DNA from: Deltaproteobacteria bacterium
Lineage (GTDB): Bacteria > Desulfobacterota > Desulfomonilia > Desulfomonilales > Desulfomonilaceae
Direction: 5' to 3'
DNA: 33,789 nucleotides
Assembly (NCBI GenBank): GCA_021777225.1
Contig: JAJYDQ010000044.1
Location: 1 to 33,789 of the forward strand
Positions 12,406-32,251 of the stretch are shown one piece after another. Under the pieces are notes generated by a model. It saw only the letters and a program-made list of their open reading frames with translations. It had not been told where the DNA came from and ran no database searches. The translations under genes were made by a program, and so were the position numbers. Position 1 is the first letter of the stretch; each line of letters begins with the position of its first letter.

Positions 12406-12660
12406 TTATGATTTCAAACCTAAGGCTTCCTTGATTTCTTGTTCCTTAAAACCCACTATAACCTTCTCGCCAATTATTAGAGTCGGAAAAGCGCATCTCG
12501 AGGTAAGCTGTTTAATTTCATCTAAAACTGGCTTCCGATCTTCGTCTGAAAGTAAATCTACATCAGTGAACTCATATTCTATTCCACAATCTCCCAGGAA
12601 TCTCTTACAAGCTTTACAATGACTACAGGTACTAAGAGAATAAAGTTTACATTGCTCCAT
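12406..12660 (-). CDS. Glutaredoxin-like small thiol protein
   Basis: 84-residue thioredoxin-fold protein with redox motif C12-S-H-C15 and a third nearby cysteine C18 (TCSHCKACKRFL). FPTLIIGEKVIVGF carries the cis-Pro and the glycine turn typical of glutaredoxins, and a C-terminal helix (QEIKEALGL) follows. The short form with CxxCxxC is common in anaerobes that use it with thioredoxin or ferredoxin-linked reductases rather than glutathione; that partner is inference. It is divergent from gmd, sharing an 85-base intergenic region. Confidence 0.85.
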   Translation of the reverse strand: MEQCKLYSLSTCSHCKACKRFLGDCGIEYEFTDVDLLSDEDRKPVLDEIKQLTSRCAFPTLIIGEKVIVGFKEQEIKEALGLKS

Positions 12661-15570: not shown

Positions 15571-16374
15571 ATGATGCCGACACAGATTGTCCCCATTTCG
15601 GACTCTCAATTGATATTTACGGGTATTTTGGTCTTTTTGACTGCGGGCATTTCCGCGTTGTTCAGACTTGGCTTGCTAAAGTCGCTTCTATGGGGAACAT
15701 TCAGGTGTGTATTACAACTAAGCATAGTCGGTTATGCGTTGGCATGGATTTTTTCAGTCAACCGTTTAGAGATAGTAGTTCTCGTAATAGCGATTATGGC
15801 CCTCTTCGCTGCCAAAACCGCCACACGGAGAACTCCTAATGTCTCCGACTTTCCTACACTGCTGGCGTTTATCGCTCTAGCTTCTACAACCTACCTGGTG
15901 GCCGCGATTGTGTCGCTGACAATCATACGCCCTGTCCCTTGGTATGAATCAAGAATAGTTGTGCCTATTTCCGGAATGATATTAGGAAACGCCGTCAGCG
16001 GTATAACACTTTCCATTGATAGGTTGTACGGGGAGGTACGCAGTCATTCCCATGAGGTTGAGGCGCTTCTATCCATGGGGGCCTCACCTTGGGAAGCAGT
16101 ACACGATCTGATTCGAGAAGCTTTAAGGTCGGCCATGACACCGACCATAAATTCATTAATGGTTGTAGGCATAGTTAGCATACCAGGCATGATGACCGGC
16201 CAGATATTGGGTGGAGCCGATCCGGTTGAAGCGGCGAGATATCAAATAGTTGTCATGTTGATGATTTCCTGTGCTGCGGCAGTGGGTAGCATGATCCTCA
16301 TCGGCCTGTCATTCCGGCGTCTATTTACAAAAGATGAGGCGCTTCGACCAAACCTGTTTCGATCTAATTCCTGA
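15571..16374 (+). CDS. fetB: ABC transporter permease, FetB/UPF0014 family
   Basis: 267-residue membrane protein with about seven hydrophobic helices and the family's cytoplasmic coupling segment EVEALLSMGASPWEAVHDLIREALRSAMTPTIN, followed by GIVSIPGMMTGQILGGADP, both strongly typical of YbbM/FetB. It would form the pore for the ATPase encoded 51 bases upstream, for metal efflux and metal or oxidative stress resistance (role by homology). AAGGA abuts tandem ATGs at 15571 and 15574, and the second has better spacing. Its last 11 bases overlap the 3' end of selA, which converges on it. Confidence 0.9.
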   Translation: MMPTQIVPISDSQLIFTGILVFLTAGISALFRLGLLKSLLWGTFRCVLQLSIVGYALAWIFSVNRLEIVVLVIAIMALFAAKTATRRTPNVSDFPTLLAFIALASTTYLVAAIVSLTIIRPVPWYESRIVVPISGMILGNAVSGITLSIDRLYGEVRSHSHEVEALLSMGASPWEAVHDLIREALRSAMTPTINSLMVVGIVSIPGMMTGQILGGADPVEAARYQIVVMLMISCAAAVGSMILIGLSFRRLFTKDEALRPNLFRSNS

Positions 16375-17782
16375 TCCGCCTAAAAGCGTCTACAATTAAC
16401 CTGGGAACGATTTGGGCCTGATTATAGAGAAATGTCCTCGGGTCAAGCAACACACTGTCTTCCTTGACAATTGTGATGACTGCTGGGTTCCCCTTACGCA
16501 GGGAGCTTTCCAGACGGGCGGCTGAAAAAACTTTCGGTTTTATCGATACACGAGGCCCAATAAGGTCACTCATTGGAAGAGCGCCTCCTCCGACCCTACC
16601 AACTCCCTGTTCTACAGAAATTTGGGCCTCATCTCCTAGCTCAGATTCCAATGCTTGAGTTATTTCTTGCACGTCAATCATCAATTCATCAGGTGACTTG
16701 CTAATCATGGCCAAAGTCGGGATGGAACCCGTCGGCCCCACCTGGCTTATATACTCCTGAAGAGTAGCCTCCAACCCAGCAAGTGTCATTTTGTCCATCC
16801 TTAAGGCTCTGACAAGAGGATTCGAACCCATTAGGCTTATATACTCCTCTTTCCCAACCAATATTCCGGCCTGAGGACCTCCAAGTAACTTATCGCCGCT
16901 AAAACTAACTATATCGATACCAGTTGACAGGACATCCTGGACAGTGACTTCGTCGGGCAGTCCAAACGGCGAAAGATCTACCAGGCACCCGCTTCCAAGA
17001 TCCATCATTGTTGGTAGTTTGTATTCCTTGCCGATCTCGACAAGTTCACCAAGAGATATCTCACGCGTGAACCCGACTATTCGATAGTTGCTTGTATGCA
17101 CTTTTAAAATTAGAGCTGTGTTTTCATTAATTGCTTGTATATAGTCTCGTGGATGGGTCCTGTTAGTCGCCCCGACTTCTCGGAGAATTGCGCCAGACTG
17201 AGCCATTACTTCAGGAATGCGAAACGATCCGCCTATTTCAATTAACTCCCCCCTCGACACTATAACCTCTTTTCCTTTAGCTAACGTGCCGAGCGCCAAC
17301 AGTACGGCGGCGGCATTATTGTTGACGGCAAGAATAGCTTGAGCGCCGGTAAGTTCTTCTATCAGCGAGTTCAAGTGAGAGTTTCGCTGACCGCGTTTTC
17401 CTTTCTCCACATCATATTCAAGGTTTGAATATGATGTCGCTATTTCGAGAATCCGCTCCGCTACTTTCCATGATAAAGGCGACCGGCCAAGATTTGTATG
17501 AACAACAACACCCGTAGCGTTAATAAGCGTTTGAAGATTTGGCCTAAGCCTTCTCTCGGCCATCTCACATATTCTGCCTACTACGGAATCAAAAGCGAGA
17601 TCTTCTGGAGTTAATTGATTTTTCTTGATTGAATTTCGCAAATCGTTGAGGGTTGCTATCAAGATGCGTTTTACAACCGCTTGGGCATAGCGGCCTAAAA
17701 GCGCATTAATCCGAGGATGAGACAGTATTTTGTCAACGGAGGGGATTAGGCTGTATAATGCTTCCGAATTGCTATCTGCCAC
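16364..17782 (-). CDS. selA: L-seryl-tRNA(Sec) selenium transferase
   Basis: 472-residue PLP enzyme converting Ser-tRNA(Sec) to Sec-tRNA(Sec) with selenophosphate, the bacterial route to selenocysteine. Seen: N-terminal SelA domain (LIPSVDKILSHP), INATGVVVHTNLGRSPLS, NNNAAAVLLAL, MDLGSGCLVDL, and the PLP lysine in SFSGDKLLGGPQAGI (K298). Full length for the family. GTG start with AGGA three to four bases upstream. It lies 11 bases after an unknown membrane-anchored gene, so they probably form an operon. selB, selD and tRNA-Sec are not in the window. Its presence supports reading the in-frame TGA at 27635-27637 as selenocysteine. Confidence 0.96.
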   Translation of the reverse strand: MADSNSEALYSLIPSVDKILSHPRINALLGRYAQAVVKRILIATLNDLRNSIKKNQLTPEDLAFDSVVGRICEMAERRLRPNLQTLINATGVVVHTNLGRSPLSWKVAERILEIATSYSNLEYDVEKGKRGQRNSHLNSLIEELTGAQAILAVNNNAAAVLLALGTLAKGKEVIVSRGELIEIGGSFRIPEVMAQSGAILREVGATNRTHPRDYIQAINENTALILKVHTSNYRIVGFTREISLGELVEIGKEYKLPTMMDLGSGCLVDLSPFGLPDEVTVQDVLSTGIDIVSFSGDKLLGGPQAGILVGKEEYISLMGSNPLVRALRMDKMTLAGLEATLQEYISQVGPTGSIPTLAMISKSPDELMIDVQEITQALESELGDEAQISVEQGVGRVGGGALPMSDLIGPRVSIKPKVFSAARLESSLRKGNPAVITIVKEDSVLLDPRTFLYNQAQIVPRLIVDAFRRIRN

Positions 17783-27580: not shown

Positions 27581-27826
27581 TTAACTGGCTCGTTTTTTTA
27601 TTTCATCCACGACACGGTGGACATCGGCTAGACATCATTTTCCAGATGGATTCGTGGTAGCGCATTGACATCCTCCGATTCTCTTTTCCGCCATAATTCT
27701 TTCCATGATCAATGACCGTCCGTTTTTGATGAAATCTTGCTCCAGATCATTCCTGGTGTAGCTAAAGCAGTAGCAGATCAGTTGGTCCTTGTTATGATCA
27801 TCGGATTCACTTAAGTTGGTTGTCAT
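27581..27826 (-). CDS. Selenoprotein: small BFD-like [2Fe-2S] protein with in-frame TGA (Sec64)
   Basis: An 81-residue protein if TGA at 27637-27635 is read as selenocysteine; otherwise the frame ends at 63. Cysteines: C18-Y-C20 (ICYCF), C53-Q-C55 (GGCQC), then NPSGK-U64-C65-LADV. CxC plus a second Cys pair about 32 residues later is the BFD-like [2Fe-2S] pattern, and the C-terminal N-P-S-G-K-C-C-L-G-type motif is, from memory, usual in related CopZ-like iron-sulfur metallochaperones, where U64 would be a Cys. The frame continues through 17 more sensible residues to a TAA. A SECIS-like hairpin follows the TGA. ATG at 27826 has GAGAT upstream. Likely a redox or metal carrier; partner unknown. 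It converges on the ABC-F gene and diverges from the ring-cleavage operon. Confidence 0.85.
27604..27637 (-). promoter_or_regulatory. Bacterial SECIS-like stem-loop directing Sec insertion
   Basis: On the minus strand, 13 bases after the TGA (27637-27635), TCCAC (27621-27617) pairs with GTGGA (27610-27606) around loop CGTGTC. Two G-U pairs (27622/27605 and 27623/27604) extend the stem. The loop starts 18 bases after the TGA and has G in its second position. Both fit the published general bacterial SECIS rules (loop at about 16-37 bases, G in the first two loop bases). Confidence 0.75.
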
Positions 27827-28480: not shown

Positions 28481-29656
28481 ATGGATCGTAATGTTTGCGT
28501 TATCGCCGGAGGTATGTCCAAGTGGGGAGTAAGGGATGGCAGCCAGCGAGATTTCTTTCAGGAAGCCGCCAAAGCCTGCTACGATGACAATCCTCAATTA
28601 AACCCTAAAGAAATTGATGGCTTGCTCGTTGCTTCGGCCTATACTGAAAGGACTTCGTACCAGACGCATCTTGCTCCGCTTGTGGCAGAGTATGTCGGGA
28701 TTCAACCCAAGAATATCTGTGCTAGAGTAGAACTGCTTTGCGCGAGCGGCAGTTCCGCGATTATTCTGGCCTTTGCCATGATAAAATCGGGTCAGGCTGA
28801 TGTAGTCATGGTGGCGGGGGGAGAAAAGCTTTACACACCACAGAAATGGGAAGTTTTTTACAGCGAGTTGGCATCCGTTGACCATGATTGGGACGGCGGC
28901 CAGGGATTGGGATTGCCACCGCCTGTGTTCGCTATGGTGGCTAAACAGCACATGCTTCAGTACGGCACCAAGAAAGAACACTTGGGCGTCGTATCGGTGA
29001 AGAACCGCAGGAATTCCTCCAAGAATCCCAAAGCCCAGTTTCAAACGCCTGTAACGATGGAAGAAGTCATGTCAGGACGCATGATCGTCCCGCCACTTAC
29101 GCTATATGACTGCTGCCCCATTACTGACGGCGCTGCGTGCCTTGTTTTGGCGGTTGAAGAAAAAGCGAAACAGATGACGGACAAACCTTTGGTTTACATT
29201 CGTGGGACCGGACAGGCTTCAGTCAATAACATGTCTGCCAACATGCCTAACTGGACCACTTGGGAAGCCCTCAAAATCGCGGCTGATCAGGCATATTCAA
29301 AATCCAAGGTAGACCCGAAAGAGGTCAATGTGGCCATGACGCATGATTGTTTCACAATATCCGAAATAATCGAAATGGAAGATCTTGGGTTCTGTAAAAA
29401 AGGTGAAGGTGGGTTCTTCGTCGCCGATGGCCAAAACGATTTCGGAGGTCAAGTCCCGACCAATACCGATGGTGGATTGCTTGGATGTGGTCACCCGTTT
29501 GGCGGTACAGGAATCAGACAGGGTATCGAGGTGACCCGTCAGTTGCGTGGTGACGCCATTCAGCAGGTACCCAACGCAACCGTCGGCCTCACCCATAATC
29601 TAAGCGGTTTTATCGCCGCTCACACTGTTTTGATCTACGGGAGGGAAGTCGCATGA
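28481..29656 (+). CDS. Thiolase-family acyl-CoA acetyltransferase (SCPx/DUF35-partnered type)
   Basis: 391 residues from the ATG at 28481, chosen for GGAGGT eight bases upstream; a longer in-frame extension to 28409 looks non-coding. Thiolase fold with nucleophile C87 (ELLCASGSSAI), H288 in MTHDCFTISE, and C336-G-H338-P in GGLLGCGHPFGGTG, so all catalytic groups are present. The stop overlaps the next start as ATGA, coupling it to a Zn-ribbon/OB-fold protein, as in two-component thiolases of the SCPx group (BbsAB is an example). Next to BamA and BamR it may cleave a beta-oxidation product of ring cleavage such as 3-oxopimelyl-CoA; that substrate is inference. Confidence 0.88.
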   Translation: MDRNVCVIAGGMSKWGVRDGSQRDFFQEAAKACYDDNPQLNPKEIDGLLVASAYTERTSYQTHLAPLVAEYVGIQPKNICARVELLCASGSSAIILAFAMIKSGQADVVMVAGGEKLYTPQKWEVFYSELASVDHDWDGGQGLGLPPPVFAMVAKQHMLQYGTKKEHLGVVSVKNRRNSSKNPKAQFQTPVTMEEVMSGRMIVPPLTLYDCCPITDGAACLVLAVEEKAKQMTDKPLVYIRGTGQASVNNMSANMPNWTTWEALKIAADQAYSKSKVDPKEVNVAMTHDCFTISEIIEMEDLGFCKKGEGGFFVADGQNDFGGQVPTNTDGGLLGCGHPFGGTGIRQGIEVTRQLRGDAIQQVPNATVGLTHNLSGFIAAHTVLIYGREVA

Positions 29657-30141
29657 GCACACCTGGAATTTCCATACTGGATGGAAAATACATGGTCACC
29701 ATGGACCTGTTCCCTCAACAGTCCAAAGAATTCAACCAGATTTACAAGTTTTACGAGTATCTCAAAGAAGGCCGCTTTACGACCACAAAATGCAAAGATT
29801 GTGGATCGGAGCCTTTTCCCCCGAGGGTCATGTGCCCAGACTGCTACAGCACTAATGTTGAGTGGGTAGATTGGCCTACCGTGGGAACAGTAATTGATGT
29901 TACCGAAGAAGCAGTTGGTGTTCCCCTTGGTTTCGGCAAACCTCCTCTGGTCCACGCATTGGTCGACCTTGACGGCAAAAAAACTTTTTTTGTCCGAATA
30001 ATCAATTGTAAGACAGGCGAACTTAAGTCCGGCGACAAGGTTAAGTTGGCTGTCTTCGATGTCGATCCGGTCCCGCAGGAATTTGGAAGAGAAGTAATTA
30101 ATATCCCAAGGGTTTTCTATGCCTTTGAACCTGTCAAGTAG
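29653..30141 (+). CDS. Zn-ribbon/OB-fold (DUF35) thiolase partner
   Basis: 162 residues: an N-terminal helix region, a zinc ribbon with C47-x2-C50 and C61-x2-C64 (CKDCGSEPFPPRVMCPDC), then a C-terminal OB-fold beta barrel (WPTVGTVIDVTEEAVGVPLGF to the end). DUF35 proteins form complexes with SCPx-type thiolases, often needed for activity and acyl-CoA binding. The four-base ATGA overlap with the thiolase gene implies equal synthesis and a complex. It is followed by a 106-base gap before bamA. Confidence 0.9.
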   Translation: MSTPGISILDGKYMVTMDLFPQQSKEFNQIYKFYEYLKEGRFTTTKCKDCGSEPFPPRVMCPDCYSTNVEWVDWPTVGTVIDVTEEAVGVPLGFGKPPLVHALVDLDGKKTFFVRIINCKTGELKSGDKVKLAVFDVDPVPQEFGREVINIPRVFYAFEPVK

Positions 30142-30190
30142 GCGGGCTCTTTTCGAATTGTGGCGGTCAGTAATATTAAGAGACCCAAAC

Positions 30191-30202
30191 AATTGATCAA
30201 TT
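30191..30202. promoter_or_regulatory. Perfect 12-bp palindrome before bamA
   Basis: AATTGATCAATT is fully self-complementary and lies 45 bases before the bamA start, in the only sizeable gap between the thiolase pair and bamA. It could be an operator for an internal promoter. It is AT-rich and short, so chance cannot be excluded. Confidence 0.25.
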
Positions 30203-30247
30203 AGACCAAGTGGCGCTTGTGTCAAAACAAATAATCAGGAGGATCAC

Positions 30248-31378
30248 ATGACTCTGGAATGGTTGCCTAGAGACAATGGCTCAAAAAACCACATACTTAT
30301 AGGCTCGGAGCACTGGGGTACGGAAGCTCCTTGCACAGTTTATGAAAAGAAACCCCTAACAAATCCCAAGGGAGAAGAAATCCCTGGTCTTTATGTGGCA
30401 TGGATCAGACTTAACAACCCGAACCAGTATAATTCCTACACTACCGAGATGGTAAAGGGCGTTATCGCCGGATTTACAGCAGCAAGCCAGGATCGTTCAG
30501 TTGTTGCGGTCGTGTTCACCGGCACAGGCGACAAAGCTTTCTGTACTGGTGGCAATACAAAAGAATACGCCGAATATTACAGCAAAAGACCCCATGAATA
30601 CGGCGAATACATGGATTTGTTTAATGGAATGGTTGATTCCATCCTTGATTGCAAGAAACCAGTCATTTGCCGTGTAAACGGCATGAGGGTCGCGGGTGGT
30701 CAGGAAATCGGTATGGCGTGCGACCTAGCTATTTCAAGCGACATAGCCATATTCGGACAGGCGGGAGCACGGCATGGGTCAAGTCCTGATGGCGGGTCTA
30801 CGGACTTTCTACCGTGGTTTCTTTCCATGGAAGACGCTATGTGGAACTGTGTAAGTTGCGAGATGTGGAGCGCTTACAAGATGAAGGCCAAAAATCTTAT
30901 CTCCAAAGCTGTTCCAGTACTCAAACAAGGTGATAAATTTATAAGAAATCCTTTGATTATAACGGACACTTATGTAAAAGACGGCGAAATCGTTTTTGGG
31001 GAATTCAAGTCCGGCGATGAAGCTAAGGCGGCTAAAGCGTTAATGAAAGAACTGCCAACAGATTTCACCCTGCTCGACAAGGAAGTGAACAAGGTAATTT
31101 GGACATTCGCCAACCTGTTTCCTGGATGTTTAATCAAGGCAGTCGACGGAATTAGAGCCAAAAAGAAATTCTTCTGGGACCAGTCGAAGCTCCCGAACAG
31201 ACATTGGCTCATGGCCAATATGAGCTACGAAGCATATTTGGGGTTTAATGCTTTTAATTCCAAGAAAATCACGGGGACCGACGTAATCGACTTTATTAAA
31301 TGGAGACAATTGATTGCGGAGGGTGCTCCAGCCACGGACGAAAACTTTGCCAAGGTTTTAGGAAAACCCAAAGAATAA
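30248..31378 (+). CDS. bamA: 6-oxocyclohex-1-ene-1-carbonyl-CoA hydrolase (ring-opening)
   Basis: 376-residue crotonase-superfamily hydrolase, the usual BamA length and about 100 residues longer than ordinary hydratases. It opens the alicyclic ring of 6-oxocyclohex-1-ene-1-carbonyl-CoA to 3-hydroxypimelyl-CoA, the key step in anaerobic benzoyl-CoA degradation. Characteristic segments: CTGGNTKEYAEYYSKRPHEYGEYMDLFN (99-126), GMRVAGGQEIGMACDLA (145-161), FGQAGARHGSSPDGGSTDFLPWF (169-191), and a BamA-specific C-terminal half with NLFPGCLIKAVDGIRAKKKFFWD. Start ATG with AGGAGGA upstream. Followed by a strong hairpin and then bamR. It is a widely used marker gene for anaerobic aromatic degraders. 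Confidence 0.96.
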   Translation: MTLEWLPRDNGSKNHILIGSEHWGTEAPCTVYEKKPLTNPKGEEIPGLYVAWIRLNNPNQYNSYTTEMVKGVIAGFTAASQDRSVVAVVFTGTGDKAFCTGGNTKEYAEYYSKRPHEYGEYMDLFNGMVDSILDCKKPVICRVNGMRVAGGQEIGMACDLAISSDIAIFGQAGARHGSSPDGGSTDFLPWFLSMEDAMWNCVSCEMWSAYKMKAKNLISKAVPVLKQGDKFIRNPLIITDTYVKDGEIVFGEFKSGDEAKAAKALMKELPTDFTLLDKEVNKVIWTFANLFPGCLIKAVDGIRAKKKFFWDQSKLPNRHWLMANMSYEAYLGFNAFNSKKITGTDVIDFIKWRQLIAEGAPATDENFAKVLGKPKE

Positions 31379-31404
31379 TCACTTGATACCTGGATTGTAA
31401 ATGT

Positions 31405-31440
31405 CGCCGGTCCACTCGATTCTAATTTAGTGGACCGGCG
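31405..31440 (+). other. Perfect 12-bp intercistronic hairpin between bamA and bamR
   Basis: CGCCGGTCCACT (31405-31416) pairs perfectly with AGTGGACCGGCG (31429-31440) around a 12-base loop. No T run follows, so it is not a standard terminator. It lies 26 bases after the bamA stop and ends 31 bases before the bamR ATG, clear of its GAGGT. An mRNA-stability, processing or attenuation role is plausible. Confidence 0.7.
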
Positions 31441-31471
31441 CCACAACCATTTCATCCGAGGTTACGGTAAA

Positions 31472-32251
31472 ATGGAATACCGATTGATTAAGGTTGAGAA
31501 ATATTTCGACGAATCTGTGATCAAAATCGTGCTGAATTCGCCTAAATCCAATGTTCTGGAAGCCGCGATGCTGGGTGAAATCTTGGAGGTAATCCAAGAT
31601 CTTAGCATCAACAACAACCTTAAACTGCTAGTGTTTGAAGGCGCAGGTAAGCATTTTTCTTTTGGCGCCAGCGTTCCTGAGCATACCAAAGATAAAGCCG
31701 CCACGATGCTTCGGGCTTTTCATGAGTTGTTTTATCAACTTTCCAACATTGGAGTCTTGACCATGGCTGTAGTGAGAGGCCAGTGTTTGGGCGGCGGTAT
31801 GGAATTGGCCCTATTCTGTAATTTCATTGTGGCTGATTCAACAGCTTTTTTCGGCCAACCAGAGATTGTTCTGGGCGTGTTTCCTCCTCCTGCTTCCGTA
31901 ATGCTACCTCTCAAAGTCGGCCAGACATTTGCTGATGAAATTGCTGTTACCGGACGGTCCCTAGACGCGAATGAAGCCGCTAGAATCGGTCTTGTCAACG
32001 TGCTTTGCGAGGAAGGTCAGGACGCATGGGAACTGGCTTCCGAGTGGATTGAAAAATATATTGTTCCAAAAAGCGCATCAAGCTTGCGGATTGCAAATCT
32101 AGCGGTCAGGACCAATTTCTTCCGTGCGATTCGAGAAGATTTGCCACGTATGGAAGGACTTTATCTAAAGCTCCTGATGGAAACCATTGACGCTAATGAG
32201 GGAATCCAAGCGTTTCTCGAAAAAAGAAAGCCGATCTGGAAAAATGAATAA
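31472..32251 (+). CDS. bamR: Cyclohexa-1,5-diene-1-carbonyl-CoA hydratase
   Basis: 259-residue crotonase-fold hydratase adding water to the dienoyl-CoA made by benzoyl-CoA reductase. The motif GAGKHFSFGASVPEH (57-71) is distinctive of Dch/BamR, replacing the usual F-x-A-G-A-D. GQCLGGGMELALFCNF (103-118) and FFGQPEIVLGVFPPPASVMLP follow. Start ATG 31472 has GAGGT nine bases upstream; an in-frame GTG at 31430 lies inside the hairpin and is rejected. The enzyme for the step between BamR and BamA (BamQ, 6-hydroxy-dienoyl-CoA dehydrogenase) is not encoded in this operon as seen here. Confidence 0.92.
   Translation: MEYRLIKVEKYFDESVIKIVLNSPKSNVLEAAMLGEILEVIQDLSINNNLKLLVFEGAGKHFSFGASVPEHTKDKAATMLRAFHELFYQLSNIGVLTMAVVRGQCLGGGMELALFCNFIVADSTAFFGQPEIVLGVFPPPASVMLPLKVGQTFADEIAVTGRSLDANEAARIGLVNVLCEEGQDAWELASEWIEKYIVPKSASSLRIANLAVRTNFFRAIREDLPRMEGLYLKLLMETIDANEGIQAFLEKRKPIWKNE

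Follow-up and report, generated by a model that had tools for sequence, protein, structure and literature searches.

A "(2Fe-2S)-binding protein (copper chaperone Copz family) form 1" has been catalogued among the prokaryotic selenoproteins both in 2022 and in 2026 (PMC9312934, PMC13188914). Its entry lists WP_245779778.1, cd10141 and, in the 2026 catalogue, the motif GxUC (PMC9312934, PMC13188914); the study referenced for it in the catalogue leaves the family unmentioned in its main text (Zhang and Gladyshev, 2008). The stretch of DNA analyzed here (33,789 nucleotides; referred to as the window) carries on its minus strand, at positions 27581 to 27826 with the final TAA included, an 81-codon gene for a protein of the CopZ N-terminal/BFD-like [2Fe-2S] type. 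The catalogued form 1 belongs to the same domain family by name and has its Sec residue first in a U-C pair following G-x; the window protein has G-K-U-C. Judged from the catalogue description, the window protein fits form 1 by domain and motif, with the GxUC motif being present in the TGA-containing homologues and the domain being judged by NF047645 and Fer2_BFD. The selenoprotein family as such is therefore not new, and the uncertainty voiced in an earlier, sequence-only reading of the window as to whether the family had been described with Sec is settled by these catalogue entries (PMC9312934, PMC13188914).

The reading frame begins with ATG, runs for 63 codons up to the residues NPSGK, reaches an in-frame TGA at codon 64 (27635 to 27637, minus strand), and continues through CLADVHRVVDEIKKRAS to TAA. 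Translation bears out the sequence-only reading, which had reported a 63-codon minus-strand frame with TGA directly after NPSGK and an onward frame to TAA. The product comprises 81 amino acids with the TGA in the context NPSGK-U-C; standard ORF calling truncates this protein to 63 residues.

To follow the codon at this position, we collected homologues from genomes at three taxonomic levels. The gene was found in 6 of 18 genomes of the order (seven copies) and in 8 of 42 genomes of the class, with a TGA within every match; in the phylum, 59 of 395 genomes (about one in seven) gave a match, and in 57 of these the TGA lay inside it. When the distinct same-phylum homologues were re-aligned to a profile, the column of codon 64 contained TGA 66 times, a Cys codon three times, and no other codon. 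The alternation between Cys and TGA that had been named beforehand as a test of Sec is thus present. Homologues ending naturally at NPSGK, which had been named as evidence to the contrary, are not what we found; the frame is kept on both sides of the TGA, C65 is invariant beyond it, and L66, D68 and V69 are nearly so. The Cys versions are longer proteins in two genomes of the phylum, together with a divergent third, and further Cys versions are plasmid proteins from Deinococcus and Stanieria. Plasmid records yielded seven matches, each with less than 60% identity, and no relative was found in the viral contigs searched. At one locus (L070, 930 to 2960, minus strand), a Cys-version CopZ-type domain lies in one open frame with a flavoprotein resembling mercuric reductase or lipoamide dehydrogenase. 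In one same-genus relative, two separate contigs apparently each carry a copy of the TGA gene (L021, G003:C184; L025, G003:C355).

Downstream of the TGA, the transcript can form the SECIS-like hairpin GUCCAC-CGUGUC-GUGGAU (27605 to 27622, minus strand; loop at 27611 to 27616). The sequence-only reading had described a hairpin 13 bases after the TGA with five Watson-Crick pairs, a loop at 18 bases and G at loop position 2; we found the same element, with one additional G-U pair. The stem opens with the 13th base following the TGA, the loop begins after 18 bases, and its second position is G. The folding energy of this element is unremarkable (z of -1.55; 13 of 200 shuffled sequences fold equally well), and the Rfam search at gathering thresholds returned two tRNAs only and no match at the hairpin. 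Since the hairpin is ordinary by energy alone, the case for a SECIS element rests on comparison. Among 53 distinct TGA sequences, standard pairs occupy 304 of the 318 pair-cells of the six-pair stem, compared with 228 +/- 6 (maximum 246 in 2000 draws) when codons are redrawn for identical proteins. Under a stricter null, in which the codons are kept per position, the expectation rises to 295.5 +/- 1.1, and none of 1000 synonymous shuffles reached 304. Sliding the partner strand by one to three bases lowers the count of pairs to between 84 and 175.

The individual pairs covary as well. With the T of the TGA numbered 0, C-G, U-A and A-U all occur at pair 18/29, C-G and U-A at pair 17/30, C-G and G-C at pair 20/27, and A-U, G-U and G-C at pair 19/28. 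At several loci, a nonsynonymous base on one side of the stem has a synonymous counterpart on the opposite side; e.g., an exchange of H to Y is paired with GTG to GTA at locus L023, and at loci L049, L062 and L065 a change from GTC to GTT accompanies D to N. Judged from these sequences, such paired nonsynonymous and synonymous changes are unexplained by selection on the protein. A G is found within the first two loop positions of 52 of the 53 TGA sequences, and five Cys homologues retain just one to four of the six pairs. The near-complete pairing, the compensatory changes and the loss of the stem in Cys homologues together support the SECIS element that had been proposed from the window.

The host genome is equipped to read such a signal. 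The gene selA for L-seryl-tRNA(Sec) selenium transferase is located in the window at 16364 to 17782 on the minus strand, not adjacent to the selenoprotein gene, and its match to TIGR00474 (579 bits, cut-off 267.9) confirms the selA noted there before. Absence of selB, selD and tRNA-Sec had been named as a finding that would speak against Sec; all three are present, tRNA-Sec with 68.4 bits (gathering 47) and selB with 402 bits. The selD gene (L090, G000:C14:30209-31135, minus strand) has a TGA at the canonical Sec site (SLAKTSG-U-AAKIG), so that SelD is itself a selenoprotein. All 59 gene-carrying genomes of the 395-genome sample are also among those with a selB match; this co-occurrence lends mild support, because selB is found in 94% of the sample. 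The window also encodes a YruB-like glutaredoxin with Cys (12409 to 12660, minus strand; 51 bits, below cut-off); the selenoprotein catalogues include a TIGR02196 family in a Sec form (PMC9312934, PMC13188914).

From the aligned codons, the covarying hairpin and the conserved residues past the TGA, which uphold the claim that this TGA specifies Sec, we conclude that UGA64 is almost certainly decoded by the host SelA, SelB, SelD and tRNA-Sec, directed by the hairpin 13 bases downstream. A genuine stop at the TGA, with a protein of 63 residues and accidental similarity downstream, would agree with the insignificant folding energy of the single hairpin and with the missing Rfam match; it is at odds with the 66:3 ratio of TGA to Cys without a third codon, the conservation beyond the TGA, the covariation of the SECIS element and the completeness of the Sec machinery. 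We regard a true stop as extremely improbable and rejected it on the post-TGA conservation, the codon ratio and the SECIS statistics.

Sequence relatives of the selenoprotein are the C-terminal half of NCBIfam NF047645 (CopZ_Nterm_CC), Fer2_BFD and the N-terminal domain of A. fulgidus CopZ, in line with the earlier suggestion of kinship to BFD/CopZ [2Fe-2S] proteins that have Cys at the TGA position. The match to NF047645 reaches 57.7 bits, below the cut-off of 100, and covers only model positions 79 to 137 of 138; that to Fer2_BFD (PF04324) scores 17.3, below the gathering score of 26. The short form is accepted by no NCBIfam model and stays below the curated cut-off in every family model tested. 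Membership in NF047645, NF045877 and NifU was rejected on such scores. A Foldseek search with the predicted structure (pLDDT 84, pTM 0.67) gave no match at E <= 0.001, with E values above 1. A second-look aligner placed the fold closest to Bfd, with Z of 6.0 to 6.3 over 52 to 53 residues, above the other rows and below 8. Taken together, we consider it very likely that the product is a [2Fe-2S] protein of the CopZ-N/BFD type.

This likeness to Bfd would fit a selenoprotein that, like bacterioferritin-associated ferredoxin, serves general electron transfer, with Sec tuning the [2Fe-2S] cluster or binding it directly and without any particular connection to metalloids. However, six Cys/Sec residues (C18, C20, C53, C55, U64 and C65) show no variation among 37 sequences, whereas the cluster needs four. 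By analogy to the related families, four of them would hold the cluster and two would be spare. As to which two, we infer that the ligands are probably C18, C20, C55 and one of U64 and C65, which would leave C53 and the other member of the U64-C65 pair as a spare selenol/thiol couple. The selenenylsulfide or metal site that the sequence-only reading proposed for U64 and C65 beside the cluster is conceivable, and C53, as the invariant extra Cys, is an equally possible partner; U64 itself might also be a cluster ligand.

The genomic surroundings of the TGA genes bear on what such a spare pair might do. Arsenic-resistance genes lie within 4 kb of 19 of 50 TGA loci and near none of 32 control stretches (4 to 8 kb, nearly all from the same genomes as the TGA loci). 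At 11 loci, a gene for an ArsP_1-type permease ends 31 to 58 bases upstream on the same strand; six of these loci fall into one family (f79), four into four other families, and one is unassigned. The fullest cluster (L028) comprises arsR, arsC, an ArsP-type permease gene, the TGA gene, and genes for a TauE-type permease and an ArsE-like thioredoxin, followed by acr3, arsF and arsG. No arsenic gene lies close to the remaining 31 TGA loci, the window included. The window copy is a solitary gene, flanked by an ABC-F gene on one side and genes for benzoyl-CoA degradation on the other; a relative (L027) has the same order of genes. The benzoyl-CoA degradation genes (28484 to 32251, plus strand) encode a thiolase, a 6-oxocyclohex-1-ene-1-carbonyl-CoA hydratase (TIGR03200) and a cyclohexadiene-carbonyl-CoA hydratase-like protein (TIGR03189, below cut-off). 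The acr3, arsC and arsR genes of the host genome are located on another contig that is devoid of the selenoprotein gene. While the 31 loci without arsenic genes agree with a general electron-transfer protein, the association at 19 of 50 loci against none of the controls argues against it, and we view this alternative as possible but somewhat improbable.

Two plasmid matches inspected individually are long Cys forms situated in mercury gene clusters. These, along with the homology to the CopZ N-terminal domain, speak for a CopZ-like chaperone whose soft metal would be copper or mercury instead, with the arsenic clusters being one context among several. The 81-residue protein, on the other hand, is devoid of a copper-binding HMA domain, and no copper or mercury genes were recognized beside the TGA loci examined, where the systematic queries addressed arsenic only. 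We deem a copper or mercury chaperone unlikely. As an association, the neighborhoods, including the mercury genes of the long Cys relatives, point to soft metal(loid) chemistry.

A role of the selenoprotein in metal(loid) handling, with arsenic the most likely substrate, is plausible from this gene association, at roughly balanced chances. The spare pair may bind or reduce soft metal(loid)s, with trivalent or organic arsenicals as the most likely species, and would then hand these on or provide electrons in a pathway ending in export by ArsP, ACR3 or ArsG. In the genus represented by the window, where the gene stands by itself, the same task would be carried out from a separate transcription unit; this is the weakest step. 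The entire chain, from selenoprotein to [2Fe-2S] protein with a spare pair, to arsenic handling, and to the same function in the window's genus, could hold or fail with about equal probability. More tentatively, and with somewhat less than even prospects, the short and almost always Sec-containing [2Fe-2S] protein may be a recurrent part of the arsenic export clusters of this phylum, its Sec/Cys site taking up or reducing trivalent or organic arsenicals and coupling them to ArsP-type permeases. If true, this would constitute a Sec-dependent arsenic module without a description in the literature searched. In the titles and abstracts covered by this search, which did not extend to Haft and Tolstoy (2025) and Haft and Gwadz (2023), no arsenic association of the protein was found. 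The link to arsenic genes offers a testable role for a catalogued selenoprotein that is little described and functionally blank.

Compared with the known systems, Bfd (4e6k, 6e6r) is the nearest fold by the second-look aligner; at 23% identity, it differs from the window protein in that it lacks Sec and has its second Cys pair spaced differently. The Csac_0668 family (NF045877; form 2, motif CU) is a related [2Fe-2S] selenoprotein family in which Sec is the second residue of the pair, while it is the first in the window protein, whose score of 25.6 bits falls short of the family cut-off of 190. The putative iron-sulfur metallochaperone CopZ_Nterm_CC (NF047645) and the N-terminal domain of A. 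fulgidus CopZ (2hu9) are alike in the C-terminal half, with CxC...C-x-C...NPxGxCC. These proteins of about 130 to 160 residues possess an extra N-terminal part and a Cys-Cys pair, whereas the window protein corresponds to their C-terminal part alone and carries Sec.
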